Below are positions 1,706-19,173 of a stretch of DNA of 63,315 bases, piece by piece. The position numbers and the translations under genes were made by a program. The first letter of the stretch is position 1. Each line of letters begins with the position of its first letter. The DNA comes from an uncultured Pelagibacteraceae bacterium (lineage in GTDB: Bacteria; Pseudomonadota; Alphaproteobacteria; Pelagibacterales; Pelagibacteraceae), in the NCBI GenBank assembly GCA_902596205.1, contig CACJSY010000006.1, positions 1-63,315 of the forward strand. The letters are read 5' to 3'. The notes under the pieces were generated by a model. That model ran no database searches, was not told where the DNA came from, and saw only the letters and a program-made list of their open reading frames with translations.

Positions 1706-2551
1706 TTAAAAAAGAATGGCTGACATAACTATTAAGGCCACTAAAATAACAGCCGATAAATAGGAATATAGAACTTCAATATTTTCAACTCTAGCTTTGT
1801 CTATTGACTCTGTAATTTTTTTTAATTGTTCTCTTCTATGGTAATAAACAATAGAAATCATAAAAATAATAGATAAAAGTGGAAATATGCTAGCGGCTCC
1901 ATAGTAATTGTAAGCGCCATGAAAAACTATTGGTAAAGATAAAGATAAAATTAACATTATCCTTCTTTTGAAAATACTTCTTTCTTCAAATAAATTTTGA
2001 CTTAATAACCACCCCATTAAAACTCCAAAACCCATATGCATAACAAGAGGATAATATCTTGTTTTAACCATTTGCATTGTCCATGCATTTTCTAGATTAG
2101 AGCTAGATAAATAACCGACATTTTCTATTGCTGCATAACCAAGACCTATAGCAGCACCATAAACTATTGCATCCATTGGTTCGTTTAAAGCTGATAGCCT
2201 GACACAAAAGAAAATAAGTAACGCAAATTTTAATCCCTCTTCTAAGAAAGCAGCTCGAAAAAAACTTTGAAATGCATTTTCTGCTACAGGAAAAGTAGCT
2301 CCTTCTACTTTATAACCACCATCAATATATTCATTGTAAGCGTTTATATCTAAACCTAACAAAGGACCTAAATGATCCTCAGCAAGCATTATGAATAGAT
2401 GTAAAGGTAAAACTATCGATGCTCCCAGTAAAAAAGATGAAAATAAAAATTTACCTGGTTCAGGAAACCTATCTGATTTCCAAACAGCTAACCCCAGCAG
2501 GATGGGAGGCAAAACTGTTGAAATATAAAGAAATGAAGGGTCTGTAAACAT
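1706..2551 (-). CDS. prsW: PrsW-family intramembrane protease
   Basis: The 281-residue product is almost wholly hydrophobic with about eight to nine membrane helices. It carries the family's hallmark motifs: EEGLK at residues 104-108, a second segment AIENVGYL, a His in LVMHMGFG, and FHGAYNYYG near the end. These are the residues thought to form the membrane-embedded active site in the PrsW/CAAX-protease (ABI) superfamily. PrsW in Bacillus cleaves an anti-sigma factor, so a role in regulated release of a membrane-bound partner is possible here. Its start overlaps the stop of the VWA-like gene, which indicates translational coupling. Candidate substrates are its single-pass membrane neighbours. 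Confidence 0.85.
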   Translation of the reverse strand: MFTDPSFLYISTVLPPILLGLAVWKSDRFPEPGKFLFSSFLLGASIVLPLHLFIMLAEDHLGPLLGLDINAYNEYIDGGYKVEGATFPVAENAFQSFFRAAFLEEGLKFALLIFFCVRLSALNEPMDAIVYGAAIGLGYAAIENVGYLSSSNLENAWTMQMVKTRYYPLVMHMGFGVLMGWLLSQNLFEERSIFKRRIMLILSLSLPIVFHGAYNYYGAASIFPLLSIIFMISIVYYHRREQLKKITESIDKARVENIEVLYSYLSAVILVALIVMSAILF

Positions 2552-5719: not shown

Positions 5720-5920
5720 ATGAAAAAGATAATAATATTTGTTTTATCAATAATCTTTATTGTTTCATGCGAACAACCCAATCCTCCTGTAAAAAAATCA
5801 AAAACAGGTATTTGTCACAAAGCTGGTTCACGATATTACGATCAAACAAAATATTTCAAGAAATTCTCAACAATCAAAGATTGTATTAAAAGTGGAGGTA
5901 GATTGCCAAAAAGAAGGTAA
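5720..5920 (+). CDS. Small lipoprotein with conserved-looking CH-GSRYYD region
   Basis: The 66-residue product begins MKKIIIFVLSIIFIVSCEQ, a lipoprotein signal with the modified Cys at residue 17. The mature part carries GICHKAGSRYYD, then TKYF and DCIKSGGRLPKRR. The combination of ICH, GS-x-YYD-x-T and C-x-x-S-G-G-R-x-P-K resembles a short C-terminal module I have seen on various bacterial secreted proteins and nucleases, but here it stands alone. The two Cys residues (about 32 and 55) may form a disulphide. It is followed 42 bases later by the caspase-like gene on the same strand. Confidence 0.6.
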   Translation: MKKIIIFVLSIIFIVSCEQPNPPVKKSKTGICHKAGSRYYDQTKYFKKFSTIKDCIKSGGRLPKRR

Positions 5921-5962: not shown

Positions 5963-7429
5963 ATGATCAAAAATTGTAAAAAACTTACCATGCTGCTTTT
6001 TACAAGTATTTTTCTATTCTCATCAGTTGAGGCTAATTGGATAACAAAAAAAAGCGACAAATCTAAAGAAATTATTAAAGAGGAGAAAAAACAAAAAACT
6101 CAATGGATTAAACTTAAAAAAAAAGAAATTAAAAAAAATAAAGAAGAGTTTAAAAAGGAAGAAAAAAAAATCTCAAATGAAGTTAAAACTTGGATAACAA
6201 AAAAAACAAAAAATAAATTTATAAAAAATATTGATGAGCTACCAGATGGTGCAATATATTTTACTGGTTATAGTGAAGGTGGTAATTACTTGTTTTATGG
6301 TTACGTAAAACCTGATCAATACTCAGAAAAGATTGATGGATTTTACAAGACTAGTAAAGGTGTAGGCTTCTTCAATGATGGGAAAACAACTTGCCAGATT
6401 GGTTCAACAGTTTTAATTGTAGACTCTGGAGAATTGACATCAAGAGTATCAGGAAATTGTTCAAATGGAATAGAATTTGTAGGAAAAACATCTCAAACAA
6501 AAAACAAAGGTTGGGGTCAAGCCAAAACGAGTGATGGTGAACAAAAGTTAAATTTTGAATTCAATGCTAACAAAAACGAAATTGCAAAACTGTACAAAGC
6601 CAATATCGTAGAAGAAAAAACTATTGCGAGAACCTTGCCAAGGAAAAATATTAAAAAAATAAATTTAAAACCAAATGGTAAATATTACGCATTATTAATA
6701 GGTAATTCAAATTATGACGATAATGGTTGGGATGATTTAGTCTCACCTGTCAACGATATTAACGCGATTAAATCAGTCCTAGATAAAAGTTATAAATTTG
6801 AAAAAATTATGATGGTTAGGGATGGAACTAAGAAAGAGATTTTTAAAGCTTTTCAAGATCTATCAAAGCTTACTACAACTAACGATTATGTTTTAGTTTA
6901 CTACTCTGGTCACGGAATGGTTAAAGCAGAACAAGCTTATTGGATACCAAAAGATGGTAGTTTAGAATGGGGTAATGGCGACTGGATTAATATAAATGAG
7001 TTAAATATATTTCTTACTGAGATTAAGGCCCATCATTTAGCACTGATGGTTGACTCGTGTTATGTAGGTGGAAAATTTAAAGGGATAAATATACTTGATT
7101 TGGAAAATAATGAAGATCGCAAAATTTTAAATACGAAACTACAAGATTACTTAGACTTGCGATCAAGAAGTGTTTTGTCTTCTGGAAGTCTAGGTCAAGT
7201 AAGTGATACTGCTCCAAACTCAAAAAATTCTATTTTTGCTCTTTCATTTATAAATATGTTAAATATTTTTGAAAAAGAATCTAATCCTTTGAATATGAGA
7301 TCAATAGCATTTAATTTAGAAAATGCATTTGCTGGAAATTATAATCAAAAACCTTATTACTACCATCCCGATACCTGGAAGCATCTTGGAGGTGATTTTA
7401 TATTTATACCAAAAAAAAATCTTAAATGA
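5963..7429 (+). CDS. Secreted caspase-like protease (peptidase C14 / metacaspase family)
   Basis: The 488-residue product has a signal peptide (1-24), a very Lys/Glu-rich linker (about 25-85) and a middle domain (about 86-225). From about 239 it has a caspase p20-like domain starting KYYALLIGNSNY. The catalytic dyad is visible: YYSGHG with His317, and LMVDSC with Cys366. The preceding Asp and small residues match the C14 family. The linker holds three WI-x-K type motifs (Trp26, Trp48, Trp77), two of them WITKK. The gene overlaps the next protease gene by four bases (ATGA), so both are made together. Bacterial caspase homologues usually cleave after Lys or Arg; self-processing in the linker is possible. 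Export to the periplasm is unusual for a death-type caspase. Confidence 0.88.
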   Translation: MIKNCKKLTMLLFTSIFLFSSVEANWITKKSDKSKEIIKEEKKQKTQWIKLKKKEIKKNKEEFKKEEKKISNEVKTWITKKTKNKFIKNIDELPDGAIYFTGYSEGGNYLFYGYVKPDQYSEKIDGFYKTSKGVGFFNDGKTTCQIGSTVLIVDSGELTSRVSGNCSNGIEFVGKTSQTKNKGWGQAKTSDGEQKLNFEFNANKNEIAKLYKANIVEEKTIARTLPRKNIKKINLKPNGKYYALLIGNSNYDDNGWDDLVSPVNDINAIKSVLDKSYKFEKIMMVRDGTKKEIFKAFQDLSKLTTTNDYVLVYYSGHGMVKAEQAYWIPKDGSLEWGNGDWININELNIFLTEIKAHHLALMVDSCYVGGKFKGINILDLENNEDRKILNTKLQDYLDLRSRSVLSSGSLGQVSDTAPNSKNSIFALSFINMLNIFEKESNPLNMRSIAFNLENAFAGNYNQKPYYYHPDTWKHLGGDFIFIPKKNLK

Positions 7430-8706
7430 GTAAAAAATTTTTAGTTTTACTTATTACAATTTTACATATTTCTGTAGCTAACGCAGATATATCAAATAAA
7501 TTTATTTTAGAGTCAAAAGTTAGAGGAAAAGAGTCTATTAGTATTGCGGTTACTCCTCTGACTGATAAAAAAAAAGTTAATGAATTAAAAGTAAATGTAG
7601 ATGATAATAAAAATTACTTAAATATTGTAAGACCAAAACTAATAAGCAGTAATAGAAATAGGTCTTCTAGAACTAAATTTAAAGGACCGGCTGAAGAAAT
7701 ATTTAAAGATTATGCAAAAAGTGTAGTTTTTATCGGTAACTATAAAAAAAATGGTTCAGGTTCTGGATTTGTAATTAATCACAATGGAAAAAAAATAGTA
7801 ACTAATTGGCATGTTGTTGAAGGCTCTAAGAAAGTAAGAGTGTGGTTAAAGCCTGAAAATTTGGTTGAAGAAAGATATATGATAGATAATTTAGACTCTT
7901 TTGAAGCTAAAGTAATAAAGATAGATAAAGAAAAAGACTTAGCTTTGTTAGAAATCAATGGTCTACCGAATGATATTAAACCTGTACAATTTGGTGATTA
8001 TAACAACGTAAATGTTGGTGAGACAGCTTTTGCAATTGGCCATCCAGGAGACTTGATCTGGAGCTTTAATAATGGAATGGTGAGTCAATTAAGACAGGAT
8101 TATAAGTGGAAATATAAAAATTCTCATCACTTTGCTGATGTGATACAAATTCAGGTTCCTATAAATCCAGGTAACTCGGGTGGCCCTTTATTTAATAAAA
8201 GCAAAAAATTAATCGGAGTTAATACATTTACTGCTGATGGTGAAAATTTAAATTTTGCAATATCAGTAAATAATATGATTGAGTTTTTAAATAAACCGGA
8301 AAAAAAAATAGAAGGAAATAAATTTATTCAAAAGAAAAAAAAGAGTCCTACCTGGATCACTAGAAAAGATAAGAAAGTAAAAAAAAATAATATAGAAAAA
8401 AAGTATCCTAACGCCCAAAAAGGAGATATTAATAAAAATGGATCCACCGATGTATGGTTTTTAGATGAAAATAAAAACGGAAAAATAGATACAGCTGTTA
8501 TAGATGCTAATGAAGATGGTATAATTGAAACAGTGGCATTTGATGAAAATGAAAATGAAAACTTTGAAATATTTTTTTTCGATGATGACTTAGATGGTAA
8601 TGCTGACAGAGCTAGAATTGATGAAAATGATGATGGTTCAGCTGACACTATGGCTTACGATTACGATCAAGATGGTAAATGGGATAAATATGAAAAAATA
8701 TCTTAA
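7426..8706 (+). CDS. Trypsin/HtrA-like serine protease with acidic Ca-binding-type tail
   Basis: The 426-residue product has a signal peptide (1-20). Its trypsin-like domain at about 95-295 shows the full triad: TNWHVVEG (His129), KDLALLEI (Asp171) and NPGNSGGPL (Ser251). No PDZ domain is seen, unlike true HtrA/DegP. After a basic linker containing TWITRK (Trp310) there are five to six short repeats with the pattern D-x-N-x-N/D-G-x-x-D up to the end, resembling EF-hand-like or thrombospondin type 3 calcium loops. It starts inside the stop region of the caspase-like gene (ATGA overlap), which implies coupled translation and joint function. The linker motif matches those in the caspase partner. 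Confidence 0.88.
   Translation: MSKKFLVLLITILHISVANADISNKFILESKVRGKESISIAVTPLTDKKKVNELKVNVDDNKNYLNIVRPKLISSNRNRSSRTKFKGPAEEIFKDYAKSVVFIGNYKKNGSGSGFVINHNGKKIVTNWHVVEGSKKVRVWLKPENLVEERYMIDNLDSFEAKVIKIDKEKDLALLEINGLPNDIKPVQFGDYNNVNVGETAFAIGHPGDLIWSFNNGMVSQLRQDYKWKYKNSHHFADVIQIQVPINPGNSGGPLFNKSKKLIGVNTFTADGENLNFAISVNNMIEFLNKPEKKIEGNKFIQKKKKSPTWITRKDKKVKKNNIEKKYPNAQKGDINKNGSTDVWFLDENKNGKIDTAVIDANEDGIIETVAFDENENENFEIFFFDDDLDGNADRARIDENDDGSADTMAYDYDQDGKWDKYEKIS
8425..8691 (+). repeat. Tandem calcium-loop-like protein repeats
   Basis: Residues 334-422 of the serine protease consist of about six degenerate units of 15-20 residues, such as DINKNGSTD, DENKNGKID, DANEDGIIE, DDDLDGNAD, DENDDGSAD and DYDQDGKWD. 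The alternation of Asp/Asn at positions 1, 3, 5 and Asp/Glu at 9, with Gly at 6, is the classic calcium-coordination pattern. The segment is strongly acidic in contrast to the basic linker before it. Confidence 0.75.
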
Positions 8707-9226: not shown

Positions 9227-10708
9227 TTGTTTATGAATTTTATAAAATATAAAGTTTTTTTATTCTTTTTTTTAAGCCTTGTATCATCTCATCTTTTTCA
9301 AGCTAAGGCCGAATTAGATGCAGTAGAAAAAGAGTTTAACGATAAAATATATGAAAACTATACAGAAATTATCGGACAATACCCTTTTCAAGAAAGAAGG
9401 AATGATATTGGAATATTTTATGATTTTGCTTGGGATAAAAATAACAAAAAAATTATCATAAAAAGAGATAATCAAAATTTACCTATTATAAGATTTTCTT
9501 TATTTAACAAAGATATTCAACCAGGTGTTTCTATTAAAAAATATAATGATATAGATTTATCTCAAACTTCAGATGAAGAAATAAGAAAACTTCATAAACA
9601 AAATATTGAAGCAAAACTTACTTTTAAAGATAACCAAATAATCTCTCTTAAACCCAATATTTATAATTATAATGATATTAAGCTATCTAATTTTTATTTA
9701 GAATTTATAAATAACATTGATACTAACAAAGGGTTACTAGAAATAACATTTATCGCAAACTTTACTAATAAAAGACCTGAACTTAATTCATTAGCTAAAG
9801 GATTGTTGGGGGAGGACAGTACATATTGTACCCCAGATATAGGTTATTATCCTATAGAAGAAGTATATATTAATGAATACAAATACGATGTCGATATAAG
9901 GGAAGGTATTAAAAATCCAGTCCCTGATAAGTGTTATCCCGTATATTTTACTTATGATAACAATGAAGTAAAAACTATTAGAACTGAAAGTGGTATAGGA
10001 CAATTCAGACAAGTCTTTAATTTTAAAAATTTTCCTTTCGATAAACAGAAATTAAAAGTTTCAATGAAAACTAATGTACACAGCAGTCAAAACATTTCAG
10101 AGATTCAGCCAAAAACAGGTTATGCTGCAGTAACTTTTTTAACTCCTGAAAAAGGCGCATTTCTAAATTTAGAAGAATACATAAATAATATCTCAAAAAA
10201 TTATTTAAAAGAATGGACTGTTACTAATGCTTATATAGAAAGTGAAGAATTAATCTTAGATAACTATTACAGTCCCTATTCAAATAAAATATATCCTTTC
10301 CATGAAAATTCTATCAACGTAGTTTTAGATATCGAGAGAAACTCTGCTCATTATGTTTATAAAATTATTATCCCTGTTTTTCTAATATTAAGTGTCGCGT
10401 GGTTTGTTTTATGGATTCCTACTCACCATCTAGAATCGAGATTAACAACTTCTATAGTTGCTCTATTAGCTTTGATTGCATATAACTTTGTTTTTTCAGA
10501 TGATATTCCTAAACTGGATTATTTAACTGCATTGGATAAATATATTTTATTATCCTATATTTTCTGCTGTATACCCACTTTTATGAGTATTGGATTCAGT
10601 AGGTTTATAGTCAGAAATCAAAGAATGGTTACAATTATTAATAAAAGACTAAGATCTTGGTTGGGGCTGATTTATTTATTAGCCTCTATACAAATATTTA
10701 GTTTTTAA
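9227..10708 (+). CDS. Pentameric ligand-gated ion channel homologue
   Basis: The 493-residue product has a signal peptide (about 1-28), a large extracellular part and four helices at the end. Residues 266-275 read KNFPFDKQKL, the conserved loop that in animal receptors is the Cys-loop; bacterial members lack the Cys pair, as here. M1 is at about 379-397 (IIPVFLILSVAWFV), M2 at about 403-425 (ESRLTTSIVALLALIAYN) with Glu403 at the inner mouth as in cation-selective GLIC/ELIC, M3 at about 438-460 and M4 at about 477-493. The part before the ligand domain is about 100-150 residues longer than in GLIC, so an extra N-terminal domain is likely. Likely a cation channel of the inner membrane; ligand unknown. 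Confidence 0.85.
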   Translation: MFMNFIKYKVFLFFFLSLVSSHLFQAKAELDAVEKEFNDKIYENYTEIIGQYPFQERRNDIGIFYDFAWDKNNKKIIIKRDNQNLPIIRFSLFNKDIQPGVSIKKYNDIDLSQTSDEEIRKLHKQNIEAKLTFKDNQIISLKPNIYNYNDIKLSNFYLEFINNIDTNKGLLEITFIANFTNKRPELNSLAKGLLGEDSTYCTPDIGYYPIEEVYINEYKYDVDIREGIKNPVPDKCYPVYFTYDNNEVKTIRTESGIGQFRQVFNFKNFPFDKQKLKVSMKTNVHSSQNISEIQPKTGYAAVTFLTPEKGAFLNLEEYINNISKNYLKEWTVTNAYIESEELILDNYYSPYSNKIYPFHENSINVVLDIERNSAHYVYKIIIPVFLILSVAWFVLWIPTHHLESRLTTSIVALLALIAYNFVFSDDIPKLDYLTALDKYILLSYIFCCIPTFMSIGFSRFIVRNQRMVTIINKRLRSWLGLIYLLASIQIFSF

Positions 10709-16992: not shown

Positions 16993-19173
16993 ATGAAAAT
17001 TACTGACCAGATAGTTGACAAACACGGACTAAAACCAGAAGAATATCAAAGCATTAAAAAATTATTAAAAAGAGAACCTAACTTACTAGAACTTGGAATT
17101 TTTTCAGCAATGTGGAATGAACATTGCTCTTATAAATCATCAAGAATTCATTTAAAAAAATTACCAACTAAAGGAAAGCAAGTAATTCAAGGACCTGGGG
17201 AAAATGCAGGTGTAATTGACATCGGGGATGATGATGCAATTGTTTTTAAAATTGAAAGTCACAATCATCCCTCTTACATAGAACCGTACCAAGGTGCTGC
17301 AACTGGAGTGGGTGGTATATTAAGGGATGTTTTTACAATGGGCGCAAGACCTATAGCTCTATTAAATTCTATACATTTCGGAGATCCAAAACATCCAAAA
17401 ACTAAAAGTTTGTTAAATGGTGTGGTCTCCGGAATAGGAGGATATGGAAACTGTATAGGAATACCGACCGTAGCTGGGGAAACAAAATTTAACGAGACTT
17501 ATAATGAAAATATTTTAGTTAATGCAATGGCTGTAGGTCATGCAAAAAAAAACAAAATTTTTTACTCAAAAGCAAAAGGGTTAAATAAATCTGTAGTTTA
17601 TGTTGGATCAAAGACAGGTCGGGATGGAATACACGGAGCTTCAATGGCATCAGCTGAATTTGATGAGAATTCTGAAGAAAAAAAACCAACGGTACAAGTA
17701 GGTGATCCTTTTACAGAAAAACTTTTAATGGAAGCTTGTTTAGAACTAATGAAAGACAACTCAATAATTTCTATTCAAGACATGGGTGCTGCTGGACTTA
17801 CGTCTTCAAGTGTGGAAATGGCATCAAAAGGATCTCTTGGTCTTGAGCTCGAACTTGATAAAGTTCCATGCCGGGAAGATAATATGACGCCATATGAGAT
17901 GATGTTATCTGAAAGTCAAGAAAGAATGTTGATAATACTTGAAGACGGCAAAGAAAAGAAAGCTAAAAAAATATTTGATAAATGGGATTTAGATTTTGTG
18001 GTAATTGGTAAAACTACAAACACTAATAAACTTTCTTTAAAGTTTAATAATAAAGTTGTAGGAGAAATTCCAATTGAGGCTTTAGCATCTAAAGCACCAA
18101 TTTACAGTAGAAAATGGATTAAAAAGAAACCTCGTAAAAATACAATTGAATTAAAAAATCTTAAAAAAATTAAAATCGAAGATGCTTTAATAAAAATTTT
18201 ATCAAGTCCTAATCATTCCAATAAAACCTGGATAACAAATCAGTATGATCAAATGGTAATGTGCGATACAGTGCAAAGATCTGGATCTGACGCTGCAATA
18301 ATTAGAATACATAATAAGGATAAAGCAATCGCCGTATCAGTGGACTCTTCTGCTAATTATTGTAAATCTTACCCTCTAACTGGCGGCAAACAAATAGTTT
18401 GCGAAAATTGGAGAAATTTAATTACTGTGGGCGCAAAACCTCTAGCTATAACTAATTGTTTAAACTTTGGTAATCCAGAAAATCAAGAGGTTATGGGAGA
18501 ATTTGCAGAATGTTTGGAAGGTATTAAACAGGCATGTGAATTTTTAAATTACCCTGTAGTTTCTGGCAATGTTTCATTTTACAATGGAACGAATAAAAAA
18601 AATATTTATCCAACTCCTGTAATAGGTGGTGTTGGGTTAATAAAAAAATTATCTAAACCTTTAAATCATTCATTTAAGGAGGCTAACAGTAGTTTATTAC
18701 TTATAGGTAAAACTTTTGGCCACTTAGAGCAAAGTTGTTTTCTAAAAGAAAATTACTCAATTGATGAAGGTATGCCTCCAGAAATTAATCTCTTAAATGA
18801 AAAAAATAATGGAGAAAATCTTCTTAAGTTAATTGATAAAAATTTAATTTTATCTTCACATGATGTTTCAAGTGGTGGTTTAATTACTGCTTTATCAGAA
18901 ATGTCTATTGCATCAGGATATGGAGCTAAAATATTTAAACCAAAGAAATTAACAAATTTAATCAAGTACCTTTTTGGTGAGGATCAGGCGAGATATATAA
19001 TTGAAATAAAAAAAAATAATTCAACAAAAGTGGAAAAAATACTGAAAGATAACGATATTTATTATGAAAATATAGGATATACGCAAAGAAATTTTTTTGA
19101 AATTGAAAGTGAATTAAAAATAAATGTAAAAGATTTATTTAAAATAAATAATGAATGGTATAATACTTACTAA
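16993..19173 (+). CDS. purL: FGAM synthase large subunit PurL
   Basis: The 726-residue product is the short, three-subunit type of PurL that needs PurS and PurQ. It shows [38 protein letters not shown], and the second-half [11 protein letters not shown] and [10 protein letters not shown] motifs of the two AIRS-like halves. It uses ATP and ammonia from PurQ to make FGAM. The stop codon overlaps the bolA start by one base, suggesting coupled translation with a redox/iron pair that is not part of purine synthesis. Confidence 0.96.

Follow-up and report, generated by a model that had tools for sequence, protein, structure and literature searches.

The window analysed here, a stretch of 63,315 nucleotides from contig CACJSY010000006.1 of an uncultured SAR11 bacterium (Pelagibacteraceae; assembly GCA_902596205.1), contains two overlapping genes, the first encoding an exported caspase and the second an exported serine protease of the trypsin type. 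In both proteins a lysine-rich linker carries several copies of a five-residue motif, [W/Y/F]-I-x-K-K, which, as judged from its sequence and distribution, is on balance probably a short linear docking motif that assembles caspase complexes in the cell envelope.

The initial annotation had described the two reading frames, their ATGA overlap at positions 7426-7429, a C14 catalytic dyad in the first protein, a catalytic triad in the second and signal peptides on both, and in all these respects it was right (Table 1). The caspase matches Pfam Peptidase_C14 over residues 242-467 (E 2.5e-18; 67.1 bits against a cut-off of 21.4), and its His317 and Cys366 are invariant in 12 aligned sequences, while the serine protease matches Trypsin_2 over residues 112-265 (E 6.8e-29), with His129, Asp171 and Ser251 invariant in 13 aligned sequences. 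The signal peptides and the signal peptidase sites were judged by eye; they suggest the periplasm as the location of both proteins, and export beyond the periplasm would also be possible. By sequence as well as by fold the closest solved relative of the caspase is MALT1, and the invariant Asp265 and Asp364 align with two acidic positions of the MALT1 S1 pocket, which we take to be D365 and D462. From this follows the prediction that the caspase prefers Lys or Arg at P1. The protease domain is closest to HtrA/Deg structures, and the DxNxDG-like repeats of its acidic tail may bind calcium.

The caspase motifs WITKK, WIKLKKK and WITKK and the protease motif WITRK, to which the initial annotation drew attention, are all present. 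The protease does not, as was then thought, have a single copy, since FIQKK is a second one, and the proposed spelling WIT(K/R)K, while it captures a real motif, is better written [W/Y/F]-I-[T/Q/K]-K-K. In all 19 motif-bearing proteases the motif is double, with [YFW][IL][QKT]K[KR] followed 9-10 residues on by [WY]I[TQK][KR]K. A table of residues at 96 motif instances is circular at the motif positions, the instances having been chosen by pattern, and alignment columns were used instead: over residues 290-330 of the protease linker in 19 sequences, the mean frequency of the top residue is 0.87 in the ten motif columns and 0.65 in the others. Among the 20 motif caspases with a readable N-terminus, 19 have the first motif at residues 24-29, directly behind the signal peptide and, as judged by eye, no more than about three residues from the probable signal peptidase site, the exception being the second caspase of genome G405 with its first motif at residue 163 (G and L numbers denote genomes and loci, respectively). 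Motif 1 is coded by nine different 15-base spellings in 15 loci, and six of these spellings encode WITKK. The loosest copy is the middle caspase motif, which is WIKLK in most close relatives, WIQFNKLK in G015 and WIKKK in other lineages (L016, L017, G270, G382 and G508).

In the sequence that was read, the motif is nearly restricted to a small network of proteins. The pattern [WY]I[TQKSI][KR][KR] occurs nine times in 453 other open reading frames (ORFs) of at least 100 amino acids (aa) from loci of at least 7 kb (131,796 aa), and eight of these occurrences lie in putative network members (two caspases, one lipoprotein and one mini-protein), the ninth in an unrelated window gene at 16993-19173. 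Looser patterns, with F first or with L or V second, also match unrelated ORFs. A scan for WITKK gave matches in 95 of 150 genomes; the 30 loci listed come nearly all from other genera, 17 of them represent a single nucleotidyltransferase-like gene (named by eye), and in none of the others is WITKK in frame within an exported protein of the kind considered here. When 397 Pelagibacterales genomes were scanned for tandem pairs of motifs, 43 of them gave matches. Among the 30 loci listed, the in-frame tandems are those of the G270 and G508 caspases and of two mini-proteins (G405 and G427); one further ORF (L170) has two copies of a looser pattern only, and the matches that fell in already known caspases (G382, G186, G036 and the window) added no new locus. 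The idea of a general SAR11 export tag finds no support: in a whole-genome count WIxKK has 20 matches and the reversed pattern 24.

A search with the caspase alignment (E 1e-8) matched 12 of 169 genomes of the genus, ten of them with the paired type, and the system is patchy, not core. When other genera and named records are included, there are 18 loci with such a caspase and protease side by side (Table 1), where the genes overlap or almost touch, with a gap of a few bases in G036, G387 and G473. At two of these loci (L018 and G473) the N-terminus of the caspase is absent at a contig end, so that they were left out of the caspase table, the G508 caspase is divided between the two strands of a contig of 4 kb, and the broken caspase of G068 was counted only as an N-terminal fragment. 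The frame of the latter (L015:10001-11492) changes behind the second motif, and the protease gene there is intact. Both motif copies are present in all 18 paired proteases, and the conservation of the motif in both proteins, within linkers that otherwise vary, holds at each of the 16 loci in which the caspase motif can be read. The initial annotation had named this conservation as a test and had seen in the motif a recognition or cleavage site of a proteolytic cascade; the part of that proposal which stands is the shared recognition element, well supported because both proteins keep the motif at all 16 loci.

Both copies are also found in the protease of G514, where no caspase was seen and the contig ends about 240 bases upstream. 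Seven homologous proteases with a similar acidic tail (G047, G027, G290, G485, G440, G177 and G470) have neither copy, and in two of them the alignment lacks the motif stretch as a block. No motif-bearing caspase was found in the genomes of these seven, which are 70-94% complete. G027 and G440 do have two and three caspases, respectively, which are of the MORN-repeat type and lack both the N-terminal motif and the barrel domain described below; they stand outside the 20 motif caspases, and one YITKK occurs at residue 489 of a G440 protein. At the loci concerned (L113 and L162), caspases whose long N-terminal parts consist of MORN-type repeats or are of other kinds are clustered as two or three genes. 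In Alphaproteobacteria outside the order, the ORFs chosen at 12 caspase loci in nine genomes (63 searched) had no motif, and no GDSGGP/GNSGGP protease lay in the short flanks. Carriage by phages or viruses was not found, either among viral contigs searched with the caspase alignment or in a search for phages with a caspase.

The motif also occurs on partners of other architecture. In G060 the gene for an 816-aa caspase, with YITKK behind its signal peptide and further copies, overlaps the gene for a lipoprotein that carries YIQKK. In G427 and G405, which have motif caspases, a small exported mini-protein (87 and 105 aa as listed) is encoded 1.7 and 7.9 kb upstream, respectively; judged by eye, it is made up of three or four motif copies flanked by a signal peptide and a C-terminal transmembrane (TM)-like stretch. 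The four copies of the G405 mini-protein are nine residues apart, and those of the G427 mini-protein read WIKKK, WITKN and WITKK. Before the caspases of both genomes stand lipoproteins, similar by eye, that have no motif. With protease, TM-anchored mini-protein and lipoprotein there are thus three partner architectures, and at all 19 readable motif-caspase loci (16 pairs, G060, G427 and G405) another exported protein with the motif is encoded no more than 8 kb away. Caspases of G405 and G427 have Ig-like matches below the cut-off (Big_6, Glucodextran_B), and in G405 (L198:717-4945) a lipoprotein gene is followed by a tandem of two genes for motif-bearing caspases.

Between linker and catalytic domain, the caspase has a small beta-barrel domain with two invariant cysteines (144 and 166), whose sequence differs strongly between otherwise similar loci and which resembles small designed beta-barrels in a Foldseek comparison. 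A hidden Markov model (HMM) of the barrel matches 17 of 19 motif caspases, eight of the 17 having been used to build it, and none of five other caspases. A wide use of this middle domain in SAR11 is not supported, as it was found in only 8 of 150 genomes and always in caspases. The AlphaFold2 models are of middling quality (mean pLDDT 71.3 for the caspase and 62.7 for the protease); they place caspase motifs 2 and 3 in helices and predict the protease linker to be disordered (pLDDT below 50 at residues 294-321).

Consider now how the parts of the two proteins diverge from locus to locus. Over 13 loci, the divergence of the linker follows that of the protease (r 0.75, Mantel p 0.0002), while the divergence of the catalytic domain does not (r 0.08, p 0.30), even though it is encoded between linker and protease. 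The barrel correlates with the linker (r 0.66), with the catalytic part (r 0.48) and with the protease (r 0.33, p 0.02). G508, with its split caspase, and G387, which has another architecture, were left out of the test, and an inserted domain in L016 was skipped. To exemplify, L017 and G382 are 94% identical in the linker and 96% in the protease domain, but only 46% in the barrel and 43% in the catalytic part; G132 and G157 are 90% identical in the catalytic part and 38% in the barrel; and the catalytic domain of the window is 37-51% identical to those of G069 and G036 despite similar linkers and proteases. The plain reading is that the flanks follow the tree of the organism and that the middle has been exchanged, and the stronger reading is that linker and protease are matched to each other. 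The motif caspases belong to two distant catalytic subfamilies, which requires at least two changes on the tree, and none of the bootstrap trees (0%) explains the distribution with one.

With a docking motif, the system would work as follows. The motif would be borne by the exported caspase and by one exported partner of the same locus, with several copies per protein providing avidity, so that the caspase would be held with its partner in one envelope complex. At the window the partner would be the acidic-tailed HtrA-type protease, and elsewhere a membrane-anchored mini-protein with many motifs or a lipoprotein. Activation of the caspase would then follow a signal that either the variable beta-barrel or the partner senses. 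Given the Lys-Lys at the end of the motif and the acidic S1 positions of the caspase, an active caspase may also cut the docking sites. We infer here three things: binding by the motif, its reading by another member of the complex, and activation of the caspase by a signal. In a wider proposal, to which we give less credence than to docking as such, WIxKK would be a code for assembly on the envelope side and would correspond, among exported proteins, to the death-domain and EAD adaptors; multi-motif scaffolds, barrel sensor and caspase could then form a signalling complex outside the cytoplasm, often beside a pentameric channel.

In the main rival explanation the motif is a processing site: the active caspase cuts after the Lys of WIxK-K and thereby removes its own linker and the acidic tail of the protease, or frees the mini-protein, in a two-step cascade in the envelope. 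Cleavage at the Lys-Lys, predicted from the acidic S1 positions aligned with MALT1, is plausible and compatible with docking. Lys is invariant or nearly so at motif positions 4 and 5, with a hydrophobic residue at the P4 place, the protease motif lies in a predicted disordered stretch, and the available text of PMC12799240 describes a parallel in which trypsin-like or caspase proteases activate a co-encoded pro-nuclease by cutting. As the main role of the motif, cleavage is nevertheless rather unlikely. Motif 1 is near the mature N-terminus, where a cut would release only a short peptide, motifs 2 and 3 are in predicted helices, and the conservation of W and I is stricter than the need for a basic P1 would by itself explain. 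Furthermore, the linker tracks the protease while the catalytic domain does not, as when the diverged catalytic domains of the window, G069 and G036 coexist with similar linkers and proteases, and the same motif is found on two distant caspase subfamilies.

It is improbable that the motif instead anchors the proteins to a surface, either as a basic aromatic element that binds lipid, peptidoglycan or an anionic envelope polymer, or through linkers (+13 at residues 26-83 of the caspase, +12 in the protease) that pair with the acidic tail (-20), in which case the shared sequence would be a common address and not a means of mutual recognition. The charges agree with such a role, and so does the position directly behind the signal peptide, where some sorting signals sit. 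However, the seven proteases without motif have a similar acidic tail, the fixed W-I with T, Q or K at position 3 is more specific than charge, and a TM-like stretch is already present in the mini-proteins of G405 and G427. Still less probable is that the motif has no recognition function and is part of a lineage-specific lysine-rich linker spread by duplication and domain shuffling. Both trees permit few origins, but the peptide has been kept through synonymous change, and it occurs in proteins of different architecture while being nearly absent from the other ORFs read.

Several observations count against docking itself. On the protease-domain tree the contrast between presence and absence of the motif needs only one or two changes, and the protease loci are therefore not 26 independent trials; a caspase may have been missed in the seven incomplete genomes, because of their 70-94% completeness. 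Linker and protease may both simply follow the tree of the organism, and lysine-rich linkers could act through charge. Nor is the barrel swapped freely, given its correlation with the linker and its weak one with the protease. In G405 the mini-protein is about 8 kb away from its caspase, the barrel was undetected by the HMM in both caspases of that genome, and no reader of the motif was identified.

Among known systems, the EAD and EACC1-caspase conflict systems are alike in that a non-catalytic element is common to caspase or trypsin effectors and their partners, in that effector parts are exchangeable, and in that the EACC1 partner is a small TM protein, as far as the accessible text of PMC7159879 and PMC8195603 describes them. 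According to the same text, EADs are folded domains, largely in NTPase-centred systems. Here, in contrast, the shared element is a motif of five residues on exported proteins: caspase and protease of the window have no Pfam domain in common that could serve as a folded adaptor, no NTPase or EACC1 was recognised among the scanned neighbours, and the NCBIfam model caspase_w_EACC1 gives the caspase 61.9 bits against a cut-off of 140. The canu or nuclease-protease pairs, in the portion of PMC12799240 available, likewise have a MALT1-like caspase co-encoded with a protein that it may activate by cutting, and the Ig-like matches of the G405 and G427 caspases, below the cut-off, are a further likeness; here the partner is a protease, both proteins have export signals, and the scanned neighbours include no nuclease, MBL-type or other. 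The bacterial caspase systems compared in this literature (PMC12799240, PMC8195603 and PMC7159879, to the extent of the text available) are directed against invaders. Export and the five-residue motif set the present system apart from the EAD, EACC1 and canu systems.

The window caspase also differs from the MALT1 paracaspase in being bacterial and exported and in having a barrel, with no Ig or death domain found by Pfam. Its partner resembles the HtrA/DegP family in its trypsin-like domain; it is far below the curated HtrA cut-offs and has acidic repeats instead of a PDZ domain, none being found by Pfam at E 0.01. Short homotypic motifs of the BASS/RHIM type are also common to neighbouring signalling proteins, but WIxKK is strongly basic and looks unlike an amyloid core. 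In PADLOC only generic caspase (9.3e-12) and trypsin-domain models (best RT-Protease_XI, 1.5e-22) gave matches, and no system did. The literature matches listed include a survey of polymorphic toxins (PMC3482391) and no paper on SAR11 or Pelagibacter caspases of this kind, and the letters WITKK matched two papers, both unrelated by title.

Table 1. Features of the window around the caspase-protease pair, and the 18 pair loci
Feature	Position	Strand	Basis
PrsW-family intramembrane metalloprotease	1706..2551	-	E 5.5e-25; neighbour in several loci
Small predicted lipoprotein, 66 aa, directly upstream of caspase	5720..5920	+	by eye (FIVSC)
Exported C14 caspase, MALT1-like, 488 aa	5963..7429	+	Pfam Peptidase_C14, homologues
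Caspase motif 1, WITKK, residues 26-30, directly behind signal peptide	6038..6052	+	sequence
Caspase motif 2, WIKLKKK, residues 48-54	6104..6124	+	alignment
Caspase motif 3, WITKK, residues 77-81	6191..6205	+	alignment
Caspase small beta-barrel domain, residues 92-209	6236..6589	+	AlphaFold2 strands, Foldseek, HMM, identities
Caspase catalytic domain, residues 242-467; His317, Cys366; S1 acids Asp265, Asp364	6686..7363	+	Pfam, alignment
Exported trypsin/HtrA-type serine protease without PDZ, 426 aa; triad His129/Asp171/Ser251	7426..8706	+	
Protease motif A, FIQKK, residues 300-304	8323..8337	+	alignment
Protease motif B, WITRK, residues 310-314	8353..8367	+	sequence, alignment
Protease acidic tail, residues 331-426, DxNxDG-like repeats, net charge -20	8416..8703	+	
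Conserved neighbour, 156 aa	8718..9188	-	
Pentameric ligand-gated ion channel (ELIC/DeCLIC-like)	9227..10708	+	match E 6.4e-15
Pair loci 1-9	window, G186/L011, G157/L012, G195/L013, G132/L014, G068/L015, G005/L004, G015/L002, G036/L005		
Pair loci 10-18	G069/L006, L016, L017, L018, G270/L154, G382/L155, G508/L156, G473/L157, G387/L159		

The neighbourhood of the pair is itself partly conserved. A small lipoprotein gene similar to that of the window, whose product has only a very weak Pfam lipobox match (E 0.47), lies upstream of the caspase, as judged by eye, in 8 of the 12 pair loci listed. The gene for the 156-aa protein is next to the protease in 16 of the 18 pair loci, and the channel, with bacterial channels as its best solved relatives, neighbours the protease in 16 of the 18 and in three of the seven loci without motif caspase; the two sets of 16 differ, G270 shows neither gene, and some contigs are short. 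In G047, G290 and G485, which have no motif caspase, the 156-aa gene, a PrsW-type protease, the channel and the acidic-tailed protease stand in a row; in G514 all four are present but arranged differently. As this row also exists without the motif caspase, the caspase may be a later addition to an older protease-channel neighbourhood. At L160 and L161 (G290 and G485) the four genes look like one operon without caspase. At 1128-1703 in the window and in many other loci (e.g., L111, L112 and L196) exported proteins of about 190 aa are encoded in tandem arrays; the family has DDIRDFQIEGxSIGDSLLD near the N-terminus, and the window member has no Pfam match above cut-off. A literature search found no paper with both SAR11 and "ligand-gated ion channel".

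The caspases described here have export signals and belong to free-living bacteria whose DNA amounts to about 1 Mb, and what links them to their partners is a motif open to mutation at each single residue. Envelope caspase signalling in SAR11, assembled by a peptide code, is therefore a testable question, and if the wider proposal of an assembly code is true, a caspase signalling complex would operate outside the cytoplasm in free-living, genome-streamlined bacteria.

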